Of a DNA stretch of 64,000 bases, positions 57,555 to 61,172 are shown piece by piece. Positions within the stretch are counted from its first letter, which is position 1; the number at the start of each line of letters is the position of its first letter. The DNA comes from Thioclava sediminum. Lineage in GTDB: Bacteria > Pseudomonadota > Alphaproteobacteria > Rhodobacterales > Rhodobacteraceae. The notes beneath the pieces were generated by a model. The model had not been told where the DNA came from and made no database searches. It was given only the letters and a program-made list of their open reading frames with translations. Where the stretch lies: contig NZ_MPZV01000001.1 of assembly GCF_002020355.1 (NCBI RefSeq), positions 310,001 to 374,000 of the forward strand, given 5' to 3'. Made by a program: the position numbers and the translations under genes.

Positions 57555-57701
57555 CTCAACCAACGTGTCGTCATAGACGCCAGGTCATCACATATCAGCA
57601 GACAGACCACGCCTCCCTTTACGGCTCGGGTCCTATCACCTAGATAAACAGTCGAGTAATTCGATAGGCGCCCGCGCCCCCCGCCGATGAAAGAGGCTTC
57701 C

Positions 57702-58067
57702 ATGACCGCCACGCCCGAAGAGCCGCTTGAAGGCACCCCGCTGATCAAGCCCTCGACGACCGATCACCCGCTCTACGAAAGTGTCGTGGAAGCGTGCCGC
57801 ACCGTCTATGACCCGGAAATCCCGGTGAACATCTACGATCTCGGCCTCGTCTACACGATCGAGATCAGCCCCGAGAATGACGCGAAGGTGATCATGACGC
57901 TCACCGCGCCGGGCTGCCCCGTCGCGGGCGAGATGCCGGGCTGGGTTCACGATGCCGTGGCCTGCGTCGGCGGACTGCGCGATGTCGATGTCGAGATGAC
58001 CTTCGATCCGCAATGGGGCATGGACATGATGTCGGACGAGGCACGGCTGGAACTGGGCTTCATGTGA
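57702..58067 (+). CDS. sufT: SufT/MIP18-like (DUF59) Fe-S assembly factor
   Basis: 121 residues from ATG 57702 (AAAGAGG upstream). The DUF59 core is seen as TVYDPEIPVNIYDLGLVYTI, LTAPGCPVAGEMPGWV and the VEMTFDPQWGMDMMSDEAR end. The cysteine in TAPGCP is the conserved one. It helps maturation of Fe-S proteins. It usually closes a suf operon; here the rest of the operon is not in the window, though an A-type carrier lies 2.7 kb downstream. Confidence 0.85.
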   Translation: MTATPEEPLEGTPLIKPSTTDHPLYESVVEACRTVYDPEIPVNIYDLGLVYTIEISPENDAKVIMTLTAPGCPVAGEMPGWVHDAVACVGGLRDVDVEMTFDPQWGMDMMSDEARLELGFM

Positions 58068-59348: not shown

Positions 59349-59349
59349 C

Positions 59350-59427
59350 GCAGGCTATTTGGCCTGCTAAATAGTGATTGCAGGCATTTTTACTTGCATA
59401 TAGCCATGCGCAGGCATTATAACCTGC
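59350..59427 (+). promoter_or_regulatory. Three phased 18-bp palindromes (operator array) over the satD-like promoter
   Basis: GCAGGC-N6-GCCTGC at 59350-59367, GCAGGC-N6-ACTTGC at 59380-59397 and GCAGGC-N6-ACCTGC at 59410-59427. The centres are exactly 30 bases apart. The second overlaps the -35 (TTGCAT 59394-59399) and the third covers the -10 (TATAAC 59418-59423, 18-base spacer). The predicted start of the RNA falls on the A of the ATG at 59430. This suits repression by the gene's own HTH product. Confidence 0.7.
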
Positions 59428-59429
59428 GC

Positions 59430-60035
59430 ATGGCTTATTTTTGTGTCCTCACCGGCGATATCGTCGCCTCGACCCGGCTCTCGGCCTCCGAGCTGAGCGC
59501 GGCGCTCGATGCGATTGAGGGGGCGGCGGAAGCGTTGTCTCCGCTTCTGCGGGAAAGTCACTTTGCCCGAAATCGCGGGGATGGGTGGCAGTTCGCGATA
59601 CCCAGTCCCCGCCTTCAGGCTAGGCTCGCGCTGCTGATCCGGGCCGAGCTGCGCACCTTGGGCGAGGCATTCGCGACCCGGATCGCGATTGCCGAGGGCG
59701 ACGGCACACTGCCGCCCGATGGCGACCTGAACGGGGCATCGGGGCCGGTCTTCACTGCCTCGGGGCAACTACTCGATAGCTTGGAGGGGCCGCGCATCGC
59801 CCATGCGGCGGGGGGGGCGCTTGGCGCGGCACTGCGGCTGTTCGATCACATCTCGGAGGAATGGACGCCGGCGCAGGCGCGCGCGATTGCGCCGATGCTG
59901 CGCATCAAACCTCCGACCCAGACCGCCGCCGCATCGGAGATAGGCATCACACGGCAATCGCTGGCACAGGCCTTGGCAAGCGCGGCTTACCCGGCCATCG
60001 TGGAGGCTCTAGCGATGATCGAGGAGACCCCATGA
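59430..60035 (+). CDS. SatD-like regulator: cyclase-like N-terminal domain plus HTH
   Basis: 201 residues from ATG 59430, with no ribosome site but a -10 just upstream, so probably a leaderless message. It starts AYFCVLTGDIVASTRLSA, the SatD-family opening. D10 (GDIVAST) and D51 (NRGDGWQF) are 41 residues apart, resembling the two metal-binding aspartates of class III nucleotide cyclases (about 44 apart). The end holds an HTH-like segment (ASEIGITRQSLAQALASA, about 165-185). Function unproven; a nucleotide-sensing autorepressor is my inference. It overlaps the DUF3307 gene by 4 bases. Confidence 0.7.
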   Translation: MAYFCVLTGDIVASTRLSASELSAALDAIEGAAEALSPLLRESHFARNRGDGWQFAIPSPRLQARLALLIRAELRTLGEAFATRIAIAEGDGTLPPDGDLNGASGPVFTASGQLLDSLEGPRIAHAAGGALGAALRLFDHISEEWTPAQARAIAPMLRIKPPTQTAAASEIGITRQSLAQALASAAYPAIVEALAMIEETP

Positions 60036-60775
60036 TCGAGACTTTCGCGGCGCTTCTCTTCGCCCATGCCTTCACCGATTTCGCGTTTCAAAGCAGCGAC
60101 ATGGCGGCAAAGAAGGCCGGGCGAGAATGGGCTGCGCTGGCCGCCCATATCGCAATCCTTGCGGGACTGACGCTGCTGGTAGGGCTGCAGCTGAGCTGGG
60201 CGCTGATCGGGGTGCTGGCACTCGTCGCCCTCAGCCATCTGGTGATCGACATCGCCAAGAGCTTCGCGCCGCGCGAACAGGCCCTCGCCGCCTTCCTCGG
60301 CGATCAAGCGGCACATCTGGCTGCGACCGCGCTCATCGCGAGCCTCTTCCCGACGTTCTGGGCCAACTCGCTCTGGGCGAACCTCTCTTGGCTCCCCGGC
60401 GCCCTGACGCTCGCGACGGGGCTCCTGATCACCACCCGCGCGGGCGGTTTCGCGGTGGGGATGCTGATGGCGCAATATGAAAACGATGCCCCGCCCGAAG
60501 GCCTGCCGCAGGGCGGGCGGATGATCGGGCTTCTCGAACGTGGGCTGATCTTTCTGCTGGTACTCGCCGGTCAGCCCTCCGGCATCGGTTTCCTTATCGC
60601 GGCAAAATCGATCCTGCGCTTCGAAGCGGTCTCCAAGGACGGGGCGAATCCGAAATCCGAATATGTGATCATCGGCACGCTGGCCTCTTTCGGCTGGGCG
60701 CTCGCCGCCTCTTACGCCACGCTCGCGCTGTTGGGACAGCTTCCGCCCCTTGGAATCCTGCCCGTCCCCGACTAA
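60032..60775 (+). CDS. DUF3307 multi-spanning membrane protein
   Basis: 247 residues with six to seven membrane segments. The N-terminal FAHAFTDFAFQSSDMAAKK and the C-terminal RGLIFLLVLAGQPSGIGFLI, KSEYVIIGTLASFGWA are the family marks. It carries conserved histidines in membrane regions (HAFTD, HLVID). Members are regularly coded next to SatD-like proteins; their function is unknown. Co-translated with the SatD-like protein through a 4-base overlap. Confidence 0.8.
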   Translation: MIETFAALLFAHAFTDFAFQSSDMAAKKAGREWAALAAHIAILAGLTLLVGLQLSWALIGVLALVALSHLVIDIAKSFAPREQALAAFLGDQAAHLAATALIASLFPTFWANSLWANLSWLPGALTLATGLLITTRAGGFAVGMLMAQYENDAPPEGLPQGGRMIGLLERGLIFLLVLAGQPSGIGFLIAAKSILRFEAVSKDGANPKSEYVIIGTLASFGWALAASYATLALLGQLPPLGILPVPD

Positions 60776-60800: not shown

Positions 60801-61172
60801 ATGTTCAACGTCCCCGGACAAGATCCCGTCACCCTGACCGACGCCGCCGTCGCGCAGATTGCCAAGCTGATGTCGCGCGAGGATGCGGCTGGCTTCCGCA
60901 TCGGCGTGAAGAAAGGGGGCTGCGCGGGCATGGAATACACGATGGAGGTCGCGGCCGAGGCCGGGCCGATGGATATCGTCGTGGAAAAGGGCCCCGCCCG
61001 TGTGCTGATCGCGCCGATGGCGCAGATGTTCATGCTGGGCACCGAGATCGACTACGAGACCGGCCTTCTGGAATCGGGCTTCAAGTTCCGCAATCCGAAC
61101 GTGGTCGACGAATGCGGCTGCGGCGAGTCGATCAAGTTCGCCGATATGGAAGCCCCCCAAAGCAACGGCTAA
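60801..61172 (+). CDS. sufA: A-type Fe-S carrier (HesB/IscA/SufA family)
   Basis: 123 residues from ATG 60801 (GAAGGAGA upstream; an in-frame start at 60750 is rejected). The three conserved cysteines are in GGCAGM and ECGCGES. It holds and passes Fe-S clusters to target proteins. Its closeness to the SufT-like gene suggests both belong to the same pathway. It could equally be called iscA. Confidence 0.9.
   Translation: MFNVPGQDPVTLTDAAVAQIAKLMSREDAAGFRIGVKKGGCAGMEYTMEVAAEAGPMDIVVEKGPARVLIAPMAQMFMLGTEIDYETGLLESGFKFRNPNVVDECGCGESIKFADMEAPQSNG

Follow-up and report, generated by a model that had tools for sequence, protein, structure and literature searches.

The window, a stretch of 64,000 nucleotides of the Thioclava sediminum genome, contains two overlapping genes on the forward strand. 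The first (59430..60035) encodes a SatD-like protein of 201 residues, P0001, with a predicted class III cyclase-fold sensor domain and a C-terminal helix-turn-helix (HTH). The second (60032..60775) encodes a DUF3307 protein of 247 residues, P0002, which is probably located in the membrane; its reading frame overlaps that of the satD-like gene by ATGA. The ATG at 59430 is the start common to close homologues of the satD-like gene. Among named contigs, the closest of these is found in Thioclava sp. JE_KL1, with 91% identity. Neighbors of the pair in the window include an FeS_assembly_P gene (57687-58067) and an Fe-S_biosyn gene (60801-61172).

Three 18-bp palindromes are located directly upstream of the satD-like gene. 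Site 1 (59350..59367) is a perfect dyad, GCAGGC-N6-GCCTGC. Counted against this sequence, site 2 (59380..59397, GCAGGC-N6-ACTTGC) has two mismatches and site 3 (59410..59427, GCAGGC-N6-ACCTGC) has one. The sequence-only reading had placed their centers at 59358.5, 59388.5 and 59418.5, with both steps 30 bp, and a re-reading of the coordinates gave the same values. The gap between the end of site 3 and the ATG is 2 nt. Single palindromes of this kind are unremarkable in the window, where 89 matches with up to 3 mismatches are found and 97.65 are expected. The array is what is special. We scanned the 4.13-Mb genome for a pattern of two sites separated by 12 bp, allowing up to 3 mismatches. The pattern is present at the window locus, with 0 mismatches for both neighboring pairs, and at one other place, on contig C4, with 3 mismatches. 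The reversed pattern, used as a control, has 0 matches in the same genome.

The last two sites overlap a probable promoter. The putative -35 hexamer TTGCAT (59394..59399, forward strand), read from the sequence, starts in the right arm of site 2 and extends beyond it. The putative -10 hexamer TATAAC (59418..59423, forward strand) lies inside site 3, in its spacer. The 18-nt spacing between them places the expected +1 at about 59430. A strict scan for sigma-70 consensus elements found no promoter at the locus, so this assignment rests on comparison between homologues. The TTG of the right arm recurs in many homologues from the same family. Across 81 same-family arrays, TA is present at spacer positions 3-4 in 50/81 last sites vs 10/149 other sites. 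In 61/81, the nearest in-frame start codon downstream of the last site begins at most 4 nt from the site end. These arrays lend support to two suggestions made from the window alone, that the last two sites cover the -35 and -10 and that the promoter is leaderless. Both are likely, the latter as a leaderless or nearly leaderless start. Site 3 also forms the center of a 13-bp perfect dyad (59402..59435) that includes the ATG and is followed by TATTTTTGTG, a terminator-like arrangement with a T-rich stretch directly after the dyad. The dyad is partly retained in a Thioclava-type locus, L039. Together with TATTTTTGTG it may terminate the upstream flavin oxidoreductase gene.

The AF2 model of P0001 has a mean pLDDT of 96.0. 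Its best Foldseek match is the adenylyl cyclase Ma1120 (E 6.2e-5); 25 matches reach E 0.001 or better, and the 50 matches listed are all cyclases or cyclase-domain proteins. A profile of 42 sequences matches Ma1120 at E 0.0011 over profile positions 4-96. Over positions 150-200 it matches zinc-transport regulators with an HTH at E 0.0026, which we take to be of the MarR type. The sensor, initially called unknown, can on these profile and model matches be named a class III cyclase-fold domain. Class III cyclases use a transition-state Asn and Arg in catalysis. Of the 138 SatD-like homologues, 137 have the metal-binding aspartate D10 and 137 have D51. Position 109, aligned by eye with the catalytic Asn, is V in 50, T in 36, I in 17 and E in 14 of the 138, and R is found in 83 at position 113, the by-eye counterpart of the Arg. 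The domain appears to keep both metal aspartates and, in this by-eye alignment, to lack the catalytic Asn, and its cyclase activity is doubtful. P0001 is similar to Ma1120 in its predicted fold and both metal aspartates, but differs in the fusion to an HTH and probably in the residue that stands in place of the catalytic Asn.

The name SatD expresses a distant relationship. PF16264, the Pfam family of SatD (cut-off 29 bits), does not match P0001 up to E 1, and membership by PF16264 alone was rejected. The family matched none of 96 genomes of the class, but none of the 14 controls either. Distant homology through intermediates is supported. PF16264 matches 6 of 56 members of our profile A2 at E 0.01 or better. 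Profile A2 finds haloarchaeal SatD proteins at about 1e-19. One of these, and an actinobacterial homologue that the profile also finds, match PF16264 at 8.5e-32 and 9.8e-18, respectively.

P0002 matches PF11750 with 70.9 bits (E 1.3e-19; Pfam cut-off 23 bits), and PF11750 matches all 54 aligned DUF3307 neighbors at E 0.01 or better. The AF2 model of P0002 has a mean pLDDT of 94.4 and is all-helical; no PDB fold match was found at E 0.001. The DUF3307 protein is probably all-helical and located in the membrane. Residues invariant in the 54 sequences include H12, Q20, H69, D91, Q92, E169, R170 and K192. P0002 also matches the phage family phrog_2470. A phage origin was considered and rejected, since P0002 and the DUF3307 protein of plasmid pEC34A have no match among annotated phages. 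Profiles A2 and A3 found one viral contig each. Many Rhodobacteraceae genomes for which the searches gave no satD-like gene have a shorter DUF3307 type, with frames of about 130-200 residues.

The two genes are closely linked. A protein search found satD-like homologues in 38 of 198 family genomes, and comparison of coordinates showed a PF11750 match adjoining the satD-like gene in 36 of these 38. With profile A2, 130 of 394 family genomes gave a match. Homologues are present in 85 of them (E 1.1e-11 or better); the other 45, at E 2.6e-8 or weaker, were left out and are mostly large cyclase-domain or HTH-only proteins, judged by the listed frames. For an order of another class of the phylum, 48 of 247 genomes matched and 41 were kept as homologues (E 5.3e-39 or better). 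This order is probably in the Gammaproteobacteria, because its half-sites resemble those of Vibrio and Pseudoalteromonas plasmid copies. A further set of 398 genomes gave 24 matches, of which 21 were kept. These genome sets, further searches and fetched records make up 138 loci, with each genome represented once. L044 was left out because its contig, judged by length, is that of L010, and L053, L054 and L057 were left out as repeats. An iterated profile detects a DUF3307-like frame beside satD in 135 of the 138; L073, L171 and L178 are doubtful. G721, a genome of the same genus as that of the window, has no satD-like match.

Copies of the pair are also found on plasmids. Direct search with P0001 found none. 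Search with P0002 gave 21 records, and the 20 listed include Pseudomonadota, Bacteroidota, Actinomycetota, Fusobacteriota and haloarchaea. Two tiny plasmids from E. coli (L194, pEC34A, 3,770 bp) and Klebsiella (L199, 4,424 bp) carry satD-like and DUF3307 genes besides Rop and a few small genes. A megablast search with the pEC34A cassette against 5,426 complete E. coli genomes gave no match. On a Sphingomonas insulae plasmid (L185, 1242-4101), the pair is beside an annotated Pycsar effector, with a cyclase-domain gene further on. A haloarchaeal satD (L198, 2968-4051) is preceded by a perfect ACAACC array; its next gene is annotated as hypothetical and not as DUF3307.

We analyzed spacing without restriction in the 138 upstream regions, using matching palindrome pairs at distances of 14-60. 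The best distance is 28-30 in 91.4 regions with ties shared, compared to 8.2 in resampled sequences, and 56-60 in a further 28.2, compared to 11.8. The resampled controls are first-order (dinucleotide) Markov resamples and not exact shuffles. We then defined an array as matching 6-N6-6 palindromes at 28-30-bp steps. With a minimum score of 7, 124 of 138 loci have an array, whereas the controls have one in 2 of 138 cases (resampled sequences) and 11 of 275 (flanking windows). When the minimum is raised to 12, 101 loci still have an array and no resampled sequence or flanking window does. The palindromes and their spacing are conserved upstream of orthologous pairs, a check that the sequence-only reading had itself proposed.

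The length of the step is lineage-specific. Three sites at 30/30 are found in all seven Thioclava-type loci (L009, L010 and L039-L043), where the exact 30-bp spacing first described for the window holds. Over all lineages, steps of 28, 29 and 30 are found. In same-family arrays the last step is most often 29 (52 of 81), in the other arrays 28 (36 of 43); all steps counted here are restricted to 28-30 by the construction of the arrays. Further upstream, the second and third steps vary about as little as the first, which suggests that the spacing is set by the protein and not by the promoter. In L134 (1169-1448), nine near-identical GTAACA-type palindromes follow each other at 29-bp steps upstream of satD, with a doubtful tenth at 30. 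The idea of binding on one face of the DNA is not supported. At 10.5 bp per turn, 28-30 bp correspond to 2.67, 2.76 and 2.86 turns; as these are not whole turns, each dimer would be turned by about -120 to -51 degrees relative to the one before it.

Fourteen loci have no array upstream of satD. The array is located before DUF3307 in L031, L058, L142 and L166, and further upstream in L130. In the remaining 9 of 138, no array at the set threshold was found upstream, between the genes or further upstream. The flanks of the 124 loci, 396,871 bp in all, contain eight segments outside the upstream region with an array scoring at least 12. Seven of these are directly before DUF3307, with the same or a similar half-site, and one is a longer upstream array. 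Same-motif sites inside the satD-DUF3307 gap, or immediately before it, were counted too if at least 9 of their 12 arm bases agreed. Where an upstream array is present and the genes are at least 27 bp apart (31 loci), there are two gap sites in 12, one in 6 and none in 13; among 88 loci with overlapping genes or a short gap, one gap site is found in 3. Flank arrays and gap sites confined to the regions before satD and DUF3307 indicate that, within the DNA examined, the sites mark the satD promoter and, given room, the predicted DUF3307 promoter.

The half-site varies by lineage: GCAGGC, GCAAGC, TCAAGC, GCAACC, GTAACC, TTAGCC and ATACGC are found. Its register was set by a rule that prefers A at base 3 and C or T at base 6 (A tolerated) and makes no use of the protein. 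This rule kept TTACTT for L110 and L118 despite a possible GTAACY reading, and both were counted as exceptions. The predicted recognition helix, residues 175-184 (R175, Q176, S177 ... Q180 in P0001; 59952..59981, forward strand), was taken from DSSP of the AF2 model. To compare the two we dropped L168 and L170, which lack the HTH, and thinned 122 arrays to 108 with less than 80% identity. Arg and Gln read G and A, respectively, in classical side chain-base contacts. At residue 175, R is paired with G at base 1 in 77 cases and with T in 3, Q with A in 7 and with G in 3, and other residues with T in 18. The rule Arg-G, Gln-A, others-T is kept in 102 of 108 pairs, a count never reached in 20,000 trials of random pairing, a control that ignores kinship. 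At residue 176, Q is paired with C at base 2 in 73 cases and with A in 3; other residues are paired with T in 25, A in 3 and G in 4. At residue 180, K or R is paired with C at base 5 in 29 cases and with another base in 4; other residues are paired with C in 1 and another base in 74.

Mutual information was calculated over the proteins. With all sequences, residue 175 leads for base 1, 177 for base 4 and 180 for base 5; for base 2, the sensor residue 53 is above 176 (z 29.8 vs 28.1). Within the family, residues 175, 176, 177 and 173 lead for bases 1, 2, 4 and 5, respectively. Sensor residues 141, 49 and 84 are also high, and 84 is second for base 5. Bases 3 and 6 hardly vary or show no covariation. 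A tree built from the sensor part without the HTH was used to find independent contrasts, comparing 65 columns per base, with letter sets (notably K/R at 180) picked after the mutual information result had been viewed. The most consistent column is 175 for base 1, 176 for base 2 and 180 for base 5. For base 4 it is 175 and not 177. Supported independent contrasts for bases 1, 2 and 5 number 4, 2 and 3 pairs, too few for any sign test to reach 0.05; on average 3.7, 1.9 and 2.3 are in the expected direction and 0.0 (rounded) in the opposite one.

Copies collected later, from plasmids, viral contigs, haloarchaea and an actinomycete, extend the comparison. Strong N6 arrays (score at least 22) are found in L183 (residue 175 Q, ACAGCC), L184 (Q, ACACCC), L187 (T, TTAGCC), L189 (R, GTAACC), L191 and L196 (both K, TTCGCC), L193 (R, GCAAGG) and L198 (Q, ACAACC). 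The base-1 rule holds in 7 of 7, with L191 and L196 taken once and L187 and L189 resembling lineages already among the 138. The base-2 rule holds in 6 of 7, the exception being L184. L194 and L199 (K with T, N5 spacer) agree with the base-1 rule. Exceptions to it are L145 and L186, in which Arg175 is paired with T, and two loci with an N5 spacer, L197 (again Arg with T) and L195 (Q, mixed bases); L058 (Lys with A) and GTATA-type sites with Gln also depart from it. No clear 28-30 array was found in L185, L188, L190 and L192, 4 of the 17 plasmid or viral loci. The covariation of helix and operator makes the SatD-like protein the most likely binder, as had been suggested. Together with the conserved arrays, it strongly supports, from comparison of sequences, that the protein regulates its own operon, though independent contrasts are few and exceptions exist.

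We propose that a dimer of the SatD-like protein binds each 18-bp palindrome through its C-terminal HTH and that dimers on adjacent sites, at the 28-30-bp spacing, line up side by side on the array. Binding in the window would shut off transcription of satD and DUF3307, since the last two sites lie over the probable -35 and -10. The cyclase-fold domain would sense a nucleotide or related ligand, free the array and so switch on the DUF3307 protein. The repressor oligomer would hold a possibly harmful membrane effector in check until the ligand appears. Computation shows the array with its conservation and its near absence elsewhere in the genome, the covariation of helix and bases, the domain folds and the linkage of the genes; we infer physical binding, repression rather than activation, oligomerization, the ligand and the harm from uncontrolled DUF3307. 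Position over the promoter, confinement of the sites to two promoters and the helix code support autoregulation, and we consider it very likely that the SatD-like protein controls its operon in this way, by dimers on each palindrome, side-by-side assembly, repression and release by ligand.

A different, global regulator, for example one responding to iron-sulfur or iron status, could in principle bind the array and leave the SatD-like protein as a bystander or cofactor. The surroundings fit this to some extent. A sufT-like C-terminus (LELGFM-stop) is located at most 420 bp upstream in 74 of 91 same-family loci, and an Fe-S_biosyn gene follows the pair in the window. However, plasmid, viral-contig and haloarchaeal copies of satD with no annotated suf gene nearby have arrays in front of them as well, the array sequence tracks the SatD recognition helix, and the window genome otherwise has just the one 3-mismatch match to the array. 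We regard a global regulator as highly improbable. That the SatD-like protein instead activates the pair, or acts as a dual regulator, would suit long upstream arrays such as that of L134 and the lack of a consensus promoter in the strict scan. Such a role is unlikely, as the last site, close to the start codon and with the -10-like TA in its spacer in most same-family arrays, should block polymerase at this position. The spacing may also be thought to reflect promoter geometry, with the -35 in one site and the -10 in the next, and not contact between proteins. The overlap of the last two sites with probable promoter elements in the same family agrees with this. The second and third steps upstream nevertheless stay at 28-30 bp, the pair scan placed no restriction on the best distance, and loci with longer leaders (by eye) as well as archaeal loci keep 28-30 bp, which makes geometry alone very unlikely as the source of the spacing.

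A further reading is compatible with self-regulation and adds a purpose to it. The pair may be a toxin-antitoxin-like or defense module, in which DUF3307 is a harmful effector and the SatD-like protein its gatekeeper. The operon has two genes with the regulator first (135/138) and predicted operators at its own promoter (124/138). Its distribution is patchy, as seen in the 38 of 198 genomes and the same-genus genome without it. The 3,770-bp plasmids with the pair otherwise carry Rop, MobA and one small ORF, and in Sphingomonas insulae a Pycsar effector and a cyclase-domain gene are close by. The essentiality of satD in S. pyogenes, as reported in PMC11323703, is what would be expected of an antitoxin or repressor. 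Against this reading, most same-family copies are found at one conserved place, and P0001 and P0002 have no PADLOC match up to E 1. Ten neighborhoods from another class (125 ORFs) show no consistent partner. Forty-three PADLOC families match these ORFs at E 1e-10; among the 25 listed, many do so by way of helicase models to which 2 ORFs match, and models such as mREase_IV, mad2, PDC-S15 and PDC-S36 have a single ORF each. A defense island as a general rule was rejected, as none is found in the 10 neighborhoods. We consider a toxin-antitoxin or defense role possible, with the balance somewhat against it. Similarly tentative is the broader idea that the pair is a mobile module of bacteria and haloarchaea, in which a degenerate cyclase-HTH protein would polymerize on a 28-30-bp operator ladder and keep the effector silent until a nucleotide signal, such as in phage infection or stress, with a co-evolved Arg-G, Gln-A, others-T code.

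Pycsar consists of a cyclase and a membrane effector. With autoregulated toxin-antitoxin operons and Pycsar the pair shares a two-gene layout, in which a probable membrane protein accompanies a regulator or sensor. It resembles them further in its predicted operators at its own promoter and its presence on small plasmids. It differs in combining a cyclase-like domain and an HTH in one protein and in having no PADLOC match for P0001 and P0002; its toxic or defensive role is hypothetical. PMC3466318 concerns LuxR regulators in Actinobacteria, part of which have cyclase homology domains, and also mentions the helix-turn-helix; unlike the SatD-like protein, these are LuxR-type. In the literature, SatD is described as related to acid tolerance or, by annotation, as a DNA-binding protein, the word also occurs in PMC5786311, and in one paper DUF3307 is an ORF label of a jumbo phage. 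PMC11323703 reports S. pyogenes satD, present in 178 of 249 genomes, as the single accessory gene in the top quarter of essentiality scores. This fits a repressor of something harmful; other causes are possible. Among the open-license PMC papers listed by our searches, none was found to describe operators or autoregulation of SatD/DUF3307.

For a widespread pair of uncharacterized genes, our analysis proposes a regulator and its target, together with the architecture of the operators and the fold of the sensor. It offers a possible rationale for satD being essential though accessory, as reported in PMC11323703. The lineages provide a natural series of operator specificities, apparently read by one helix, which would allow recognition to be tested residue by residue.
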